Notes under the pieces: model-generated
What the model saw: the letters and a program-made list of their open reading frames with translations, nothing else
Told to the model about the DNA's origin: nothing
Database searches by the model: none
Program-made: the position numbers and the translations under genes
Part shown: positions 23,048 to 60,792 of the stretch, one piece after another
Position numbering within the stretch: the stretch's first letter is position 1
Layout of the letters: the number at the start of each line of letters is the position of its first letter
DNA from: a virus
Length of the DNA stretch: 64,000 nt
IMG/VR virus record: IMGVR_UViG_3300017963_000020
Span: 1 to 64,000 of that record
Reading direction: 5' to 3' (one strand)

Positions 23048-23120
23048 CAGAAGAAGGGGCTTCGGTCGCTTTCGGATGAGGAGCACTCTACCTATCGGCG
23101 ACCTCCACTCCAGGGCGAAT

Positions 23121-23486
23121 GGAGTCGGTGGGAATCGAACCCACGTCCAGCTCAGGGATCCATGGTCCATCTACGATCGTAGTCGGTTCTTTTCAGCTAC
23201 CGACAGCCTATCCCGTTCTTTCCACGAGCAAGTCAACCCGAGTTAGGGTCGGTGGGATTTAACCGACCTGAGTTCCTAACGGCGGTTCATCCAAGGCCGG
23301 AACGCTCCTCGGTGAACCGGAATGGTCAAGCGACCATTCTGGCGGTCATCGCCTCGCCAAAAGAGGCGGGACGAGCGACCTGTCGCTTTTCATTGGCGAT
23401 TGAATTTGATTGTTCGCTCCTTGACGCGGAAGCATACGGATCGCAGGATTCACTTCACCTCTGCCTGTCGAGCCCTTTACGACCCC
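23121..23486 (-). ncRNA. ssrA: Transfer-messenger RNA (tmRNA)
   Basis: A 366-base one-piece tmRNA. The 5' end reads GGGGTCGTAAAGGGCTCGAC followed by AGG, the tmRNA-specific D-loop signature. The 3' end reads GGACGTGGGTTCGATTCCCA and ends CGACTCC, so the acceptor stem pairs GGGGTCG with CGACTCC (one G-U) and the T-arm is GTGGG/CCCAC around TTCGATT. CCA is not encoded. The best tag frame resumes at GCC (23397) after TCAATC: 23 codons, ANEKRQVA... ending TARMVA, with the TGA at 23326-23328 on a hairpin (GAATGGTC/GACCATTC), as in helix 5 of bacterial tmRNAs. A second frame beginning GCG-AAC-AAT is possible. tmRNA rescues stalled ribosomes; a phage copy could retune tagging. Confidence 0.88.
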
Positions 23487-50710: not shown

Positions 50711-51031
50711 TTACCTTTTGAATACCTTGACATTCTCGAGCTTGCAGCTGAAGGACGACCATCGCCCCTCGGTGAACCCGTCGTCCTTGCTGATGCCCCT
50801 CTTGCGGATGTTGATTCGGTAGGGCACGAGGAGATCCTTGGCCTTCCTGCCCGTCTCTTCTGCCTTCAGAGACGCATCCAATTTCCTATTGACTCTGTCT
50901 TCCCTGGAACACGATGCGGTCATCTCCAAGACCGAATCCTGATCCGCCGGATAGCAGGAATCGTACCGAAGCATATCGGTCGGGAAGGCCATCTTGGTCA
51001 CGACCGTCGCCTCATGAATCCAAATCACCAT
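50711..51031 (-). CDS. Hypothetical protein, 106 aa
   Basis: ATG 51031 with leader CATATTAGGAGG. Beta-rich second half; the middle is charged and helical. No family recognised. Confidence 0.5.
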   Translation of the reverse strand: MVIWIHEATVVTKMAFPTDMLRYDSCYPADQDSVLEMTASCSREDRVNRKLDASLKAEETGRKAKDLLVPYRINIRKRGISKDDGFTEGRWSSFSCKLENVKVFKR

Positions 51032-51077
51032 GTCTGTCCTCCTAATATGGTCTCGAATGTGTTCGGGTCAACGGCAA

Positions 51078-51177
51078 GAGGGCCGAAGGCATCGGCCCTC
51101 CAGTCGGCAACCGAAACGATCGGTTGTCGAAACCATATTGAAAGGCTGATGGCTCCGGCAGGTTTTCACCTGCCGGA
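51078..51177 (-). terminator. Three tandem hairpins
   Basis: In the gap 51032-51188 three stems follow each other: GAGGGCCGA/TCGGCCCTC (51078-51100), CGGCAACCGA/TCGGTTGTCG (51105-51129), and TCCGGCAGG/CCTGCCGGA (51154-51177), the last with the UGAAAA loop shared with other hairpins here. They probably end transcription of the gene at 51189. A plus-strand copy of the leader (ATATTGAAAGG near 51137) lies between them. Confidence 0.5.
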
Positions 51178-51188
51178 ACCGATGATGA

Positions 51189-51404
51189 TCAGGACTGAAG
51201 GTATTCCCTATCCTTCTTGCAGAAGAGGTCGTAGACCTCGGTTTCGGTCAGGCCGACCAGCTCGTCCTCGGTGAAGGACAGCTCGTCGTCGTAGAAGGAG
51301 AACATGAAACAGGAATCCCATCCCTCGCAGATGCAGACGAACCTTCTTTTGTATTCCTTGACTCCCTTGTCAATTACTTTGATGACCTTCGTTTCCTTGC
51401 TCAT
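51189..51404 (-). CDS. Hypothetical acidic protein, 71 aa
   Basis: ATG 51404 with leader ATATTGTGGAGG. An alpha/beta protein with Cys/Phe-rich centre (FVCICEGWDSCFMFSF). No family recognised. Confidence 0.5.
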   Translation of the reverse strand: MSKETKVIKVIDKGVKEYKRRFVCICEGWDSCFMFSFYDDELSFTEDELVGLTETEVYDLFCKKDREYLQS

Positions 51405-53528: not shown

Positions 53529-53567
53529 ATCTGCTGGCTGGAATGCTGTTCTACTGCATGAGAGCCA
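53529..53567 (+). repeat. Left arm of inverted repeat flanking the Lys-rich gene
   Basis: This 39-base arm (starts ATCTGCTGGCTGGAATGCTG and ends ACTGCATGAGAGCCA) matches in inverted orientation the 36-base arm at 54483-54518, with two substitutions and a 3-base gap. The two arms enclose 915 bases including the complete gene 53608-54423. Confidence 0.7.
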
Positions 53568-53607: not shown

Positions 53608-54423
53608 TTAGTTCTCCACGATCTCCATGAGGCTGTTCGCCTCCAGGATGTCCGCCTCCAGCTGTTCCTTCCGCTTGCCGATGGCGTTCAGTTCCTTGTT
53701 CATGGAGCGGATGAGCTTCCCGATGGCCTTCTTGATCTGGGGGATGGACATGGACTTCTTCGCCTTGCGGTTCTTGCGGTTCTTCTTGGTCTTCTTGGAG
53801 GTCTTCTTGCTCTTGCCCTTCGGCATCTGCTCGGCGGTCGGGTAATCGTGGTCGGCCGTCAGCTTGATGTACTGCTCGGCCTCCCGGATGCCCTTGCCGT
53901 AGAGCTCGAAGAACTGATTGTAGACCTTGAAGAACGCCTTCTGCGCCTTGCTCCGCGCCTTGCCCTTCGCATTCAGGGCGACGTTCAAGGCCTCCAGGAC
54001 CTCGGCCTTCTTCGCCTTCTTGCCCGTCAGCTTCTTGTCGGCCTTCGGCTTGGACGCCTTCTTGCCCTTGGCCTTCTTCGGCGTGTCGTCCACGACCTTG
54101 ATCTTGACGGGGACCAGGAAGCGTTCCGCGTCGCGGATGGTCTTGCCGAACGTGTCGGTGTAGATTCCGTAGAGCTTCGCGACCTTCTTGCGGTTCTCCT
54201 CCTTGATCGCCTCCAGGATCTGCTTCCGCAGTCCCCGACGGCTCTGCGAAGGAGTCACTTCCTTGCCCTTCTTGCCCTTCTTCGTGGCCTTCTTGTTCTT
54301 CTTGCTGTCCTTGACCTTCTTGCCGGACTTCTTGGCTTTCTTGTTCTTCTTCGTGGTCTTCGTGGCCTTGGAATCCTTGATGGTCTGCATGAGGTCGTTG
54401 ATGGCCTTTTCGAGCTTCGTCAT
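53608..54423 (-). CDS. Lys-rich protein with two internal repeats, 271 aa
   Basis: A histone-like composition: Lys is the most abundant residue, with blocks such as KKTSKKTKKNRKNRKAKK. Two similar segments, VAKLYGIYTDTFGKTIRDAE (about 75-95) and FFKVYNQFFELYGKGIREAE (about 163-182), each end in an 'F/Y-G-K-x-I-R-x-A-E-x-(F/Y)' motif; the spacing suggests two copies of a small helical domain joined by Lys-rich linkers. A variant leader (CTATTTCAAAGGGCAAAG) and SD AGGAGA are present. It may compact DNA or bind RNA. It is flanked by a 36-39 base inverted repeat. Confidence 0.55.
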   Translation of the reverse strand: MTKLEKAINDLMQTIKDSKATKTTKKNKKAKKSGKKVKDSKKNKKATKKGKKGKEVTPSQSRRGLRKQILEAIKEENRKKVAKLYGIYTDTFGKTIRDAERFLVPVKIKVVDDTPKKAKGKKASKPKADKKLTGKKAKKAEVLEALNVALNAKGKARSKAQKAFFKVYNQFFELYGKGIREAEQYIKLTADHDYPTAEQMPKGKSKKTSKKTKKNRKNRKAKKSMSIPQIKKAIGKLIRSMNKELNAIGKRKEQLEADILEANSLMEIVEN

Positions 54424-54482
54424 GGTTGAATCTCCTGTTTATCTTTGCCCTTTGAAATAGGGCATGACTTGACTGACTGACT

Positions 54483-54518
54483 TGGCTCTCATGCAGGACA
54501 GCACTCCAGCCAGCAGAT
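54483..54518 (-). repeat. Right arm of inverted repeat flanking the Lys-rich gene
   Basis: On the minus strand it reads ATCTGCTGGCTGGAGTGCTG... to GAGAGCCA. It is the inverted partner of 53529-53567 and lies at the left edge of the structured non-coding region. Confidence 0.7.
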
Positions 54519-55415
54519 CGGCCGGAACCGATCTGTCTGGCGTCGTCAGGCTTCGCGTGTCCGCTACTCCGTTCTCTCCCCGATACCTATCCGCTTGATC
54601 AAGGGCGAGCTTGCTCATACTCCCTTGCCCCTATCGGTCGTCCCTTTGTTTGCCGACGTCCCGTTCAACCGGAGCATCCGGGGAACGCAAGGTTATTCGG
54701 CTTTCATTTATTGAACGCCGGATAGGGGAGAGCGAATGATATGGTTTCGGTCGGTGGATTAGTCCGACCCGATTTTTCCAGACACGTTTAAGGGGATGTC
54801 TGGTCCTCTCGGCTATTCCTTGAAATAGACTTCCGGGTTTTTGTTTCAAGTACGAGGCCCGGAGACCTCTGGGCGACGTGACATAACAGCACTCGCGTTC
54901 GTGCGTCTGCTCGTTTCCTTGTCTGCCTGTCTTTCGAGCTATGGTCGGGTCATCTCGCGTCCCTTGCGCTGATGCGCTTTCGAGCTTGGTCGGGACTGCA
55001 CTATCACCCGTGAATCAGGCAATCAAGGTTCGGTGGCTGACGCCTTCCGGCGAGCCTGACCTTTCGCCCCTTATGACGTTTCCGAGTTACTCCCCGCGAA
55101 GCCTTCTTGCGATCTCCCTCGGCAGAGGGTATTCGCGCTCAGGCTAAAGACCGGGACTGAACCCTGCGTCTTTCCTGCCTCGGCTCCGCAGCTTGCAGAG
55201 GAGCCTCCTGGCGATCAGCCTTTCACAGTTTCGTCCGTCCCCCCTTCTGCTGTCTCGCGACATGGAAGGAGCTAGGCGTCCACCCCTACTCCAGCCGATC
55301 GATCGGTCCAGGCTAACTCCCGTTCCGCTCGGTCTCGTATTTGTCAAAGATCAGTGTCGTGCTCTGCCGAGCACAGCTGAAGGGTCGGCCGTCAATGTTT
55401 TCGTCAGGCCGACCC
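54514..55415 (-). ncRNA. Large structured non-coding RNA candidate (about 900 nt)
   Basis: No gene with an SD or normal composition exists on either strand, yet the region is dense with exact complementary segments. A long-range 14-bp helix pairs 54574-54580 and 54587-54593 with 54719-54732. Inside it are 54662-54668/54711-54717, 54600-54605/54622-54627 and 54669-54673/54677-54681. Further hairpins: 54514-54521/54528-54535, 54749-54754/54764-54769, 54778-54784/54797-54803, 54819-54825/54844-54850, 55035-55056 (GGAA loop on the minus strand), 55095-55100/55132-55137 around 55116-55129, 55146-55151/55168-55173, 55182-55187/55200-55205, 55359-55364/55369-55374 and 55382-55390/55407-55415. The strand is inferred from the surrounding operon and the GNRA loop. 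It may be a giant 'ornate' RNA such as GOLLD or ROOL, or new. Confidence 0.5.
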
Positions 55416-55423
55416 GATTGTGT

Positions 55424-55612
55424 TTAGTCGTGCAGACAGGGTCCAAGGTAACGGTCCATGAAATTGGCGAGCTCCTCGGCTCCGTGAGTAATCAGGGCAT
55501 CCCTGAGCTTCTTGTTCTTCTGGTAGTGTTCCGCGTCATGCAAGGAACGGAGCACAGACTCCAGATCCTTCAGGGAGCCGAACAGAGCGTTGATCCTTTC
55601 TTCCCTTGTCAT
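55424..55612 (-). CDS. Hypothetical protein, 62 aa
   Basis: ATG 55612 with leader CATATTTGAAAGGC. A helical acidic protein (MTREERINALFGSLKDLESV...). It ends 9 bases before the structured region. No family recognised. Confidence 0.5.
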   Translation of the reverse strand: MTREERINALFGSLKDLESVLRSLHDAEHYQKNKKLRDALITHGAEELANFMDRYLGPCLHD

Positions 55613-55694
55613 GTCTTTGCCTTTCAAATATGGTCTCGAATGTTTTGCCTTGCTGATGGCCGGAGGAACGGGTCGGTCCCTCCGACCGATGGTG

Positions 55695-57085: not shown

Positions 57086-58129
57086 TCAAGACGATCGGCA
57101 CGACTCAGTAGAATAGGGTATTTTTCGGTCGTATTTAGCCGAGAATTGCTCCCGATTGCAGTCACAAGGGTCCTTCCCCTTCGGAAGCCTGATCCGATGC
57201 AGATCGGTCTCAGGGTATAGCAGCTCGGTCGCACGTTTCCATCCCTCATCTCCACCATCATCCGCGTCGTATGCTATGCAGACCGAATCGAAATGTTCTG
57301 CAAGGAGATCGGCTTGATCCTCTGTCATGCTGGTAGAAAACGTCGCGACGCAAGGATGGCCGAACTGAACGATCTTCAAGGCATCCCAGATTCCTTCTGC
57401 TACCACGACCTCACGACACGATCCTGCAAATATGTTCAGGCCGAATAGATACTTGCCTATCTTTGAACCCTTCGGAAACCATTTCTCAGAGTTATCTATC
57501 GGGTTCTGTGCAAAGAACGTCATCCATTCGCCGTGCTCATTCAGGATTGGAATTATGATCTGCAGTTCCCCGCGATAATATCCAAGGCCGATCTGGAAGT
57601 CCTGGATGATCCGTGCGAGCCCCTGCCGTTCGAACTTCCTTTTCTTATTCTTGATCATGTATTTTGCTATGAACTCTGGGTCTTCTATCATCGGCGGAAT
57701 GTAATGGCTTTCTTCGTCGTCATCGCCTTCGATCTTCGGCCCTTCAAGAAGCTGAGCCATCTCCCTGTCAAGGACTCCCTGGGAATAGATGCTTCCGCCG
57801 ACGCTGAATTCTTTAAGGATGCCGAGGGCATGGCTGAAGTCGCATCCTTCCATCAGCATTATGAAATCAACGATCGAACCCTTTCCGCATTTCCAGCACT
57901 TGTAGAATCCGTTCCACTTCGTTCCCTTCTCATCTACCATCCCGAACGACGGTTGATGATCCGGTCCTCCATGGCTGTCAAGGGGACACGATCCGTTGAT
58001 GTATCTGCCCGATCGCTGAAGGTTCCTGACCTTGTAATACTCCAGGATCCGTTCGATATCTGCGTTCTTCTTAAGGCTCTTAGCATAGTTTCGACGCTCT
58101 AGCTTTCTTCCTGCTACGTTTCTTTCCAT
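57086..58129 (-). CDS. DnaG-type primase
   Basis: Start at ATG 58129 (347 aa). The N-terminal CHC2-like zinc finger reads CPLDSHGGPDHQPSF...FYKCWKCGKGSI (about 43-85). The Toprim domain has EVVVAEGIWDALKI (Glu motif) and VCIAYDADDGGDEGWKRA (DxD motif). It lies two genes downstream of the helicase and overlaps the glycosylase gene by 50 bases. It is shorter than cellular DnaG and lacks the C-terminal helicase-binding domain, which is normal for phages. Confidence 0.85.
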   Translation of the reverse strand: MERNVAGRKLERRNYAKSLKKNADIERILEYYKVRNLQRSGRYINGSCPLDSHGGPDHQPSFGMVDEKGTKWNGFYKCWKCGKGSIVDFIMLMEGCDFSHALGILKEFSVGGSIYSQGVLDREMAQLLEGPKIEGDDDEESHYIPPMIEDPEFIAKYMIKNKKRKFERQGLARIIQDFQIGLGYYRGELQIIIPILNEHGEWMTFFAQNPIDNSEKWFPKGSKIGKYLFGLNIFAGSCREVVVAEGIWDALKIVQFGHPCVATFSTSMTEDQADLLAEHFDSVCIAYDADDGGDEGWKRATELLYPETDLHRIRLPKGKDPCDCNREQFSAKYDRKIPYSTESCRSS

Positions 58130-58706
58130 GGACACGATCTCCAATCCGCTTCCAATCTTCTTTCGCCATTTCTTTGAATTCAGGGTTCCTTCCTATCGCG
58201 GATGGATGGTACGAGACATAGATCAGCGATTCGAAGCTGTGTTCCCTATGCTTTCCCCATCCTCTGTTCGCCCTGATGCCTTCCACGTTCTTCAACGCGA
58301 ACAAGGCAGAGTTCCCCAGAACGATGATGAGCTTTGGCTGGATGATGGACAGGGTTTTCATCAGCCTTGGAGCACACCGAATGATCTCTTCTTCTGTCGG
58401 CTTATTGAATCCTCCATTAGGATTTCTTCCTGGATAACAAAGAACGGTATTCATGATGAACGTGTTATTCCGTTCAAGGCCAGCGATCTTGAGTAGCTTG
58501 TCAAGAATGGTTCCTGCCTTCCCAATGAACGGATCGCCTTCCATATCTTCTTCAGGTCCAGGAGCCTCTCCGAGGATGACGATGCGTTTATTACAGGCTC
58601 CGCGACCAAAGACCATACGATCTCTCGTGGTCGCGTTTCCGCAAAGCTCGCAACCCTTCATCCTGCTCTTTAGCTTCTTCAGCTCTCTAAGCTTAGAACG
58701 CTTCAA
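58080..58706 (-). CDS. Uracil-DNA glycosylase, family 4
   Basis: A 208-residue protein (TTG start with GGAAGGAGC). Motif 1 VILGEAPGPEEDMEGDPFIG then KAG, motif C YHPSA, and four Cys (CELC near 19, LC near 89, RC near 109) for the 4Fe-4S cluster are all characteristic of family-4 enzymes. It removes uracil from DNA and is often found in archaea, thermophiles and large phages. Here it sits with the helicase and primase. Confidence 0.85.
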   Translation of the reverse strand: MKRSKLRELKKLKSRMKGCELCGNATTRDRMVFGRGACNKRIVILGEAPGPEEDMEGDPFIGKAGTILDKLLKIAGLERNNTFIMNTVLCYPGRNPNGGFNKPTEEEIIRCAPRLMKTLSIIQPKLIIVLGNSALFALKNVEGIRANRGWGKHREHSFESLIYVSYHPSAIGRNPEFKEMAKEDWKRIGDRVHGKKRSRKKARASKLC

Positions 58707-58751
58707 AAGAGCTCCTTCCTGTTAGCTAGAGCTTCAGCTTGCTCTGAACGA

Positions 58752-58765
58752 AGCTAGCGCTAGCT
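58752..58765. repeat. 14-base palindrome AGCTAGCGCTAGCT
   Basis: A perfect palindrome in the gap 58707-58805 followed by another TAGCTAGCT. CTAGC-type palindromes recur in the window (for example 60909-60914 in a terminator loop). It could bind a dimeric regulator; nothing else is seen in the gap. Confidence 0.35.
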
Positions 58766-58805
58766 AGCTGAGTGAAGTGTCTACTTCCTACTGTCTATGA
58801 TTGCT

Positions 58806-58955
58806 TTAATCTATATCCATTATTACTGCTCGTAAGTATTCGATGTCAACCCATTCTGATTTCACTTCGATCATTCCGCATTGTTTACACTTGCGGACCA
58901 CGATGTCGCCGAAGTCATCTTCAAATAGAGTTTCGAATTCATCGTGCGGACACAT
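58806..58955 (-). CDS. Zinc-ribbon miniprotein, 49 aa
   Basis: Start ATG 58955 follows AAAGGAGAGG. MCPHDEFETLFEDDFGDIVV and then CKQCGM give an incomplete ribbon (C-P-H and C-x-x-C). Too short for most gene callers. No family recognised. Confidence 0.55.
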   Translation of the reverse strand: MCPHDEFETLFEDDFGDIVVRKCKQCGMIEVKSEWVDIEYLRAVIMDID

Positions 58956-58967
58956 CGGCCTCTCCTT

Positions 58968-59420
58968 TCATGCGAAACGGGTTTTGATTCTTTTCCCGGC
59001 GATTGCTTTCTTAAGGAATTCATTCCGCATATCGCCGTCAACGGTTGCGATATCTGGCTGTCCTCCTGGCGACATCATGTCTTCTACCAGTTTCTGGACG
59101 ATTGCCTCGTCGTCCATGCCTTCGTAATGAGCGCGAAGCCTTTCAGCCATGTTCGTATTCACAGCGAAACGTTCACGCTGAAACGCTTCTGCCTTCTCTC
59201 TGGTAAGGTCTACGAATATACGATCGCCGACGCTCGGAACATGGAAAGGGTCAATTCGATCTGTCTGCCAATCAAAATGAACTGATTCATTTCCGTTCTG
59301 ACTCAGCACGATAAAAGGCGTGACGCCGTCCCTTGAATTCCAAATGATTTCAACCTTGCCCGTTTCCCTGTCCCTATACTTCATCAAGGCGAATGCTTCT
59401 GCGTGATTATATTTGCCCAT
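58968..59420 (-). CDS. Hypothetical protein, 150 aa
   Basis: A protein with a beta-rich N-terminal part (YRDRETGKVEIIWNSRDGVT) and helices after residue 90. It lies directly downstream of the helicase (1-base gap). No family recognised. Confidence 0.5.
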   Translation of the reverse strand: MGKYNHAEAFALMKYRDRETGKVEIIWNSRDGVTPFIVLSQNGNESVHFDWQTDRIDPFHVPSVGDRIFVDLTREKAEAFQRERFAVNTNMAERLRAHYEGMDDEAIVQKLVEDMMSPGGQPDIATVDGDMRNEFLKKAIAGKRIKTRFA

Positions 59421-59421
59421 A

Positions 59422-60792
59422 TCAATCCTCTCCTTTCTTTCTCTTCTTTTTCTTTTTGCGTTTCATGCTCGGGTCATTCAGCCGGATCAACCCGAAGTTC
59501 GGTATGACCTCAATGAATTCTCGCGTCTTGCCTTCGCGAACCTTCATGAATTGAATCTTTGCCCGAGGAGGGTTCCGTAGTCTCATGGCCTTCGTTTGGA
59601 TAATCGCGAACAGGCAGTCGGCATTCTGGGATAGAGCCTGTTTAGAGATGGCGATATCGCGGATTTCCAGCTCTTCTTTGCCCTCGGCTTCGGGTTTGAG
59701 CTGTCCTGCGGAGACGATTGGGATGCGTCGTTTCAGGGCAAGGTTCTTCGTTTCCCGAACGACGATTGCTTGGGGTTGCCAATCAACGGAGAGCGAGTCG
59801 CGAGGAGTGTGAGAAGAGGGGACCATGTTTTGCATATAGTCTATGAATATGATATCGGGCTTGAACGCGATCTCTGTCAACTTGCTGTCAATAGCAGCTG
59901 ACGAGCATCCATCGTGCATCCCGATAATCTTTAGCCTGTTCTTCCGTAGCTCCTTAATAGACGTCTTCCATTTCTTTAGATCTATATCGCGCATCGTAGG
60001 AGGCTTCTTGAATTTATTATGCCGAACCCTGGAGATGCGCGAGTCCATGCGGAAGGCAGTCTGTTTCGCTGTCATCTCGTTCGTTACGAACGCGACTCTC
60101 CTGCCGAGTTCAACAGCCATGAAGACCGCCTGATCCTGCATACATATAGATTTCCCGCCCGAAGTCTGGGCGACGAATATGATCAGGTCTCCAGGATTGT
60201 ATCCTGCCGTCTGGTCGTCGAACCGACTATCAATTCCTGATTCAATGCCCCTTGCGAATTCTGGATTCAGTCGAGCCTTCTTTATGTACTTCAGTCGTTC
60301 CTTCCAGTCGCCTCGCAGATCAAGGACTTCCACTTCGTGCTGTTCCGTTGATCTGGCTTGCGCGATGCCGTCAGCCAGGAATTCGCGAACCATGAATGGG
60401 TTCCCGCTTTGCGTGAAGATATCTTTTGCGTTGATGAGGAGCTGCTGTATATGCCTTGAATGCTCGCACCGATTTAATTCTTCGACAAGATAGTCGGTCA
60501 TCTTGGCCGACACGTCCATCCCGCGAAGCCTTCTTACAAGCCGACGCAGCTTCTTTTTCGTCGGCGAGTCCTCTTCCGATTCGCTCACCTTCGTTAAAAG
60601 AATGTCGGCGTTGATCGGGGCGAAATACTTGTACTGATGGTCGCGGATAATAACGAATATCTTCCGCGTCATTTCGGAGGAGAAAGTATTTGCACTCAAC
60701 TTCTGTAGGATTTCTGTCTTGTTCAGCCGTCTGGATTTTAGCAAGAGCGCAAGGACTTCCTTCTCCTTTTCAACGTCACGATAATTGATCAT
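59422..60792 (-). CDS. dnaB: Replicative DNA helicase, DnaB family
   Basis: A 456-residue protein. An N-terminal helical domain (1-130) is followed by the RecA-like ATPase domain with FVAQTSGGKSI (Walker A, about 207-216), the TNEM region, DIIFIDYMQNM (Walker B, about 310) and VSAGQLKPEAEG. The length and order match hexameric helicases of phages. It starts the replication operon after the terminator at 60896. Confidence 0.9.
   Translation of the reverse strand: MINYRDVEKEKEVLALLLKSRRLNKTEILQKLSANTFSSEMTRKIFVIIRDHQYKYFAPINADILLTKVSESEEDSPTKKKLRRLVRRLRGMDVSAKMTDYLVEELNRCEHSRHIQQLLINAKDIFTQSGNPFMVREFLADGIAQARSTEQHEVEVLDLRGDWKERLKYIKKARLNPEFARGIESGIDSRFDDQTAGYNPGDLIIFVAQTSGGKSICMQDQAVFMAVELGRRVAFVTNEMTAKQTAFRMDSRISRVRHNKFKKPPTMRDIDLKKWKTSIKELRKNRLKIIGMHDGCSSAAIDSKLTEIAFKPDIIFIDYMQNMVPSSHTPRDSLSVDWQPQAIVVRETKNLALKRRIPIVSAGQLKPEAEGKEELEIRDIAISKQALSQNADCLFAIIQTKAMRLRNPPRAKIQFMKVREGKTREFIEVIPNFGLIRLNDPSMKRKKKKKRKKGED

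Follow-up and report, generated by a model that had tools for sequence, protein, structure and literature searches.

To our knowledge, only a few large structured RNAs of phages have been described, namely GOLLD and ROOL, and their functions are unresolved. Both form RNA-only cages, and GOLLD is often found near the tRNA genes of phages or prophages. GOLLD is a large (many members >800 nt), phage-borne, and structured RNA of unknown function that is divided into a conserved and a less conserved part, and ROOL is a large structured RNA of phages and prophages with no assigned function (PMC12286853).

The DNA analyzed here (the window) corresponds to positions 1-64000 of an 88,133-bp IMG/VR virus record, and nearly all of its genes are on the minus strand. 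The region 54514-55415 is without a credible gene and is bounded by two minus-strand genes, one ending at 55424 and the other starting at 54423. The longest stretch of the window left uncovered in a rough ORF-cover test was 54430-55423 (994 bp), with 801-1681 as the runner-up, and the gene-free gap that an initial annotation had reported at this site was therefore borne out. The stretch 801-1681 (881 bp) is a second long one without a convincing gene. Homologous copies of the region were found in two distantly related uncultured phages, G001 (IMGVR_UViG_3300031566_000077) and G015 (IMGVR_UViG_3300031578_000010), which were obtained by a DnaE-alignment search. The element is homologous, non-coding, strand-consistent, and structurally conserved in the three phages, and a boxA-like site is found near the 5′ end of each copy. 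Here, we propose, with a probability of about 0.72, that it is a stand-alone large structured non-coding RNA of ~0.7-0.9 kb, representing a new family of the GOLLD/ROOL sort beside replication genes, whose synthesis would be Nus-assisted and which may serve as a scaffold in trans. The features of the locus are listed in Table 1.

Table 1. Features of the RNA locus and its neighborhood (window coordinates)
Feature	Position	Strand	Basis or remarks
Large structured non-coding RNA	54514..55415 (ends approximate, putative transcript)	−	Homologues at the corresponding place in G001 and G015; no conserved frame; no Rfam family
Primase, uracil-DNA glycosylase, DnaB helicase (upstream context)	57086..60792	−	Pfam and PHROG matches; synteny with G001 and G015
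5′ hairpin GGGTCGGCC-loop-GGCCGACCC	55382..55415	−	Loop shared with G001 copy B
boxA-like antitermination site TGATCTTTGACAA (13-mer)	55341..55353	−	No other exact match in the window
5′ domain downstream of boxA (approximate)	55152..55340	−	G001 copies A/B; window version more divergent, own pairs predicted
Conserved core: TTGAAnnAAAAA(n)CGGAAG, hairpin, GCCGnnAGGnC	54796..54868	−	12 pairs kept in three phages
Core hairpin 2, CTATTTCAAGGAATAG	54813..54828	−	CCATTTCAAGGAATGG in G001, CTAACCTATGGGTTAG in G015
3′ domain closed by long helix (54574-54593 with 54719-54732, 6-nt bulge)	54574..54732	−	Corresponding long-range helices in G001 and G015
3′ hairpin CAGATCGG-TTCCGG-CCGATCTG	54514..54535	−	Sequence and fold; sequence not conserved
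Lysine-rich basic protein gene (271 aa), directly downstream of the RNA	53608..54423	−	Homologues 2-3 kb downstream in G001 and G015, E ~1e-5

The copies were compared with known RNA families. With all 4227 models of Rfam 15, the window copy gave only one miRNA at E ≤ 10 (E 9.4, chance), and the G001 and G015 copies gave no significant match at E ≤ 5. The initial annotation had left it at GOLLD, ROOL, or a new RNA and had named an Rfam match to an ordinary element as an outcome contrary to its reading; an identity with GOLLD or ROOL was not supported, and no match to an ordinary element beyond chance was found. The window RNA shares with GOLLD (RF01998) the size class, the phage origin, the structured nature, and the combination of a conserved with a less conserved part. 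It differs in the missing model match and nearby tRNA, and in having its core in the middle to 3′ half and a boxA near the 5′ end. A tmRNA located 31 kb from the RNA was the only tRNA-like gene found in the window, and no tRNA gene was found in the stretches of the relatives examined. GOLLD membership was rejected on these grounds (covariance model not matched and tRNA neighborhood missing), and ROOL membership was rejected because its covariance model was not matched. ROOL (RF03087) is also a large structured RNA of phages, but the window RNA is larger, has no Rfam match, and lies beside replication genes instead of at a tRNA island. OLE, HEARO, and group I/II introns are likewise large structured bacterial or phage RNAs; their covariance models were not matched by any copy, and the window RNA is not inside a recognized interrupted gene. 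No nuclease or reverse transcriptase gene was recognized among the neighbors scanned. The boxA-led rRNA operons and boxA-led CRISPR arrays resemble this locus in that boxA stands near the 5′ end of a long untranslated RNA, but the window RNA is neither an rRNA nor a CRISPR array and is phage-encoded. By the covariance-model and context tests, the element is not GOLLD, ROOL, OLE, HEARO, or an intron. A catalogued large RNA, such as GOLLD or ROOL, that had diverged too far for recognition by the Rfam models would agree with the size class, the phage origin, and the complexity, but such a relationship is very improbable, given that three copies have no match beyond chance at relaxed thresholds and that no tRNA was found nearby. 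We therefore assign the RNA to a known kind, but to a new family within it, since the GOLLD/ROOL model match fails and the tRNA neighborhood is missing, and boxA distinguishes it. If unrelated to the known families, it would point to repeated evolution of such RNAs in phages. A literature search of incomplete coverage found no description of the window RNA.

The DnaE proteins of G001 and G015 are 63% and 62% identical, respectively, to that of the window phage. The gene order DnaB–uracil-DNA glycosylase–primase is kept in both, with the long non-coding stretch following within ~0.3 kb, and the primase-to-RNA distance in the window is ~1.7 kb, with a few small genes in it. The homologous copies are located at ~16970 to 16150 in G001 (copy A) and at ~71815 to 71125 in G015, and G001 has, at another site of this gene cluster, a partial copy of ~280 nt (copy B, 14540 to 14260). 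Pairwise, the three copies reach best blastn E values of 1e-7 to 1e-10, and the nhmmer similarity spans much of their length. The known set consists of only these three full copies and one partial copy. Blastn searches, in which all three copies were compared with annotated phages and the window copy also with plasmids, gave no matches or only short ones at chance level, and single-protein scans with DnaB and DnaE, for which rare peptides were picked as queries, gave at most one distant match. A scan with the motif TGACGAAAANATTGAC gave no additional homologue among the matches listed, and corrected motifs returned only G001 and G015 from IMG/VR. Nine motif matches in 84,980 genomes lacked the surrounding motif and were judged to be chance. 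A model of the core (R1) gave E values of ~1e-21 to 1e-23 on the three copies used to build it, and on 31 related virus records it was convincing in G001 and G015 only; the best other match (E 0.003) was inside the DnaE stretch of its genome, G002, and was rejected.

Two further observations concern the relatives. Several small proteins encoded in ~15300-11558 of G001 and ~71136-66795 of G015 are 88-97% identical, compared with ~50-60% for the flanking proteins, and this difference suggests a recent exchange of the gene cluster. The DnaE of G001 (L008 1001-5403) has an intein-like insertion after a conserved SFNKC and many in-frame stops further on.

As expected of a large structured non-coding RNA, the copies have no conserved protein-coding frame. 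Translated comparisons of the copies gave blocks of ≤46 residues scattered over frames and both strands, and the neighboring primase used as a control gave a 330-residue match. The frame across the core is stop-free for ~126 codons in the window and G001 copy A and for only 40 in G015. The window-A and window-G015 frame scores do not exceed those of shuffles, and a 22-residue stretch between A and G015, which does, is within the nucleotide-similar core. A conserved coding frame in relatives, which the initial annotation had regarded as speaking against an RNA, was thus not found. These data also bear on whether the region is a broken gene or intergenic DNA that has decayed or is free of constraint, its stems having formed by chance. 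The little conservation outside the core and the long stop-free frames in the window and G001 would agree with such an origin. However, the neighboring proteins are only ~50-65% identical across the phages, so unconstrained DNA should have lost all similarity, whereas the best-conserved RNA stretches are 69-82% identical with pairs kept. Together with the short G015 frame and the frame similarity within the range of shuffles, this makes decay the least probable of the explanations considered here.

Over the full length of 54514-55415, the minus strand folds more strongly (MFE z −5.8) than the plus strand (z −3.0), in line with the strand favored in the initial annotation. The full-length region was the most stable of 23 same-sized segments (z −4.5); the other 22 minus-strand segments, which are mostly coding, had a mean z of −1.65 (sd 1.46, lowest −3.9). 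In 200-nt windows, the minus-strand z of the region (−0.2 to −2.4) was no better than the genome background (minus-strand mean −0.8, sd 1.4). Stem length and 200-nt folding energy were dropped as proof of structure, being ordinary against shuffles or the genome background. Of the many stems that had been noticed by eye, the long helix is present, but the stems are not exceptional by themselves; they are weak evidence because local folding is ordinary, whereas the homologues are strong evidence. The long-range helix exists, although not as the uninterrupted 14-bp stem first described. It consists of two 7-8 bp halves (CTCTCCC and CTATCCG, pairing with CGGATAGGGGAGAG at 54719-54732), which are separated by the bulge. 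A strong long-range helix of different sequence is found at the corresponding place of the 3′ domain in all three copies (10 bp in G001 and 11 bp in G015). Its length or strength alone is not significant in the window copy or G001 copy A, and the best single long-range helix of the window 3′ part was equaled or bettered in 41/100 shuffles. GNRA hairpins numbered three on the sense and none on the antisense strand of the window copy, which is not significant, and seven (1.3 expected) and none, respectively, in the G015 copy. The 5′ hairpin loop GACGAAAAnATTGAC recurs in G001 copy B on a stem with compensatory changes (GCCCGGCC/GGCCGGGC), and this hairpin (55382-55415) may be part of the RNA or the end of the upstream gene. 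The most stable 200-nt fold of the window is at 51001-51200 on the minus strand (z −8.3), where strong GC-rich hairpins form an intergenic cluster that ends in the leader ATTCGAGACCATATTAGGAGG.

boxA is the signal by which bacteria transcribe ribosomal RNA without premature stops. The boxA-like site, which is absent from the initial observations, is the sole match to TGATCTTTGACAA in the window even when one mismatch is allowed; it is ~60 nt from the 5′ limit of the RNA and oriented as the RNA. Every copy has such a site near its 5′ end, exact in the window and G001 copy B, with one mismatch in G015, and degenerate in copy A (CGGTCTTTGATAA). In the form of copy B, the 5′ boxA module can also stand by itself. 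The same 13-mer is located 103 nt upstream of 16S in one bacterial sequence (L263) and between tRNA and 23S in another (L276). These positions are typical of ribosomal boxA, and hence the phage site is identical to the ribosomal-operon boxA of two bacterial genomes. In 198 genomes of one bacterial phylum, the 13-mer was found ~50 times, compared with 4 for the reversed control; most of its other bacterial occurrences are away from rRNA genes, and the 13-mer is therefore not proof of function by itself. It was not found in the eight bacterial genomes searched for it. The genomes G235 (L264) and G185 (L265) contain it 3 and 7 times, respectively, in similar GC-rich surroundings and not at rRNA genes. 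The gamma-proteobacterial boxA consensus is GYTCTTTAANA (PMC5725501). TGATCTTTGACAA differs at two positions from this consensus.

The core, comprising 74 aligned columns, is the most conserved part of the RNA and, ~500 nt 3′ to boxA, lies in its middle to 3′ half. Its pairs, which form three helices, are kept 12/12 in all three phages with four two-sided and two one-sided changes, and G-U variants occur among them. When the 3′ partners were shifted by 1-3 columns, pairing dropped from 100% to 25-58% and the two-sided changes to 0-1, and 5/500 column shuffles reached the observed value; the structure was named by eye from the same sequences, which favors it in the pair count. Three of the six pairs of core hairpin 2 have two-sided changes. 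RNAalifold on the same 74 columns preferred a partly different pairing for this hairpin, so its exact fold is not settled. In the 5′ domain, the G001 paralogues A and B have 67 shared pairs predicted by RNAalifold, with 15 two-sided changes and none broken, the structure being predicted from the same two sequences that were scored. A home-made simultaneous fold-and-align procedure was too unstable outside the core and was discarded as evidence. The initial annotation had made its reading depend on homologues with compensatory changes, and these were found in G001 and G015 (the core and the A/B paralogues). As in other large structured non-coding RNAs, pairs are thus kept through two-sided changes in homologues, here in few sequences, the covariation resting mainly on the 12 core pairs and one paralogue pair (A/B). 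The earlier reading as a giant structured minus-strand RNA is therefore supported by the compensatory homologues and the lack of a frame, but its GOLLD/ROOL identity is not. Alternatively, the hairpins may act at the DNA level, for example in a replication origin adjoining the primase gene, which would account for the proximity of the genes for primase, uracil-DNA glycosylase, and DnaB in each of the three phages. This is improbable, however, because there is no GC-skew switch in the window and the transcribed strand folds more strongly, and the G-U variants in the kept pairs, the sense-strand GNRA loops of G015, and the RNA-acting boxA point to RNA.

By analogy with rRNA, synthesis of the RNA probably uses the Nus antitermination of the host. 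When RNA polymerase transcribes boxA, NusB-S10 and other Nus factors would be loaded; the loaded polymerase would resist Rho on the long untranslated RNA, and the Nus factors would help the RNA fold while it is made, as on rRNA operons. The boxA at its head suggests how phages make long untranslated RNAs despite Rho, that is, by the rRNA route, and whether boxA precedes GOLLD and ROOL too becomes a direct question. The site near the 5′ end would also suit a cis-acting leader, in which boxA and the RNA load an antitermination complex for readthrough into downstream genes, as in phage put or EAR-type leaders. Same-strand genes indeed follow, and neither a promoter nor a terminator of the 54514-55415 RNA, including at its 3′ end, was recognized. 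We consider a leader unlikely, although it is the most plausible of the alternatives: the most conserved part is ~500 nt past boxA, beyond the need of a loading site, the known put and EAR elements are much shorter than the window RNA, and the three phages differ in the first gene downstream of the RNA. Since the genes right behind the RNA differ between phages, a scaffold in trans is preferred over a single-gene leader. The finished stand-alone RNA may serve as a large scaffold, either by itself or together with a basic phage protein (e.g., the downstream lysine-rich protein), and a large RNA or RNP scaffold is our leading guess for its role. More tentatively, the RNA could be a new giant phage RNA class that borrows host rRNA antitermination via its own boxA and, in the course of infection, builds a large particle of RNA or of RNA and protein, perhaps one that includes the lysine-rich protein.

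Both G001 and G015 encode homologues of the lysine-rich protein (53608-54423) within the same cluster of genes, and it is therefore a candidate partner of the RNA, no more. Its gene is flanked by an inverted repeat of ~37 bp, with arms 87% alike (53529-53567 and 54483-54518), one of which reaches the 3′ end of the RNA. The repeat might represent the end of a mobile element, a segment capable of inversion, or a stem for RNA processing. A leader resembling ATTCGAGACCATATTTGAAAGG recurs before several minus-strand start codons (e.g., 55613-55640) and is possibly a phage promoter or translation signal. The phage-encoded tmRNA of the window is at 23117-23486 on the minus strand, and a homologue of the adjoining gene (23825-23490) immediately follows the partial RNA copy B in G001.
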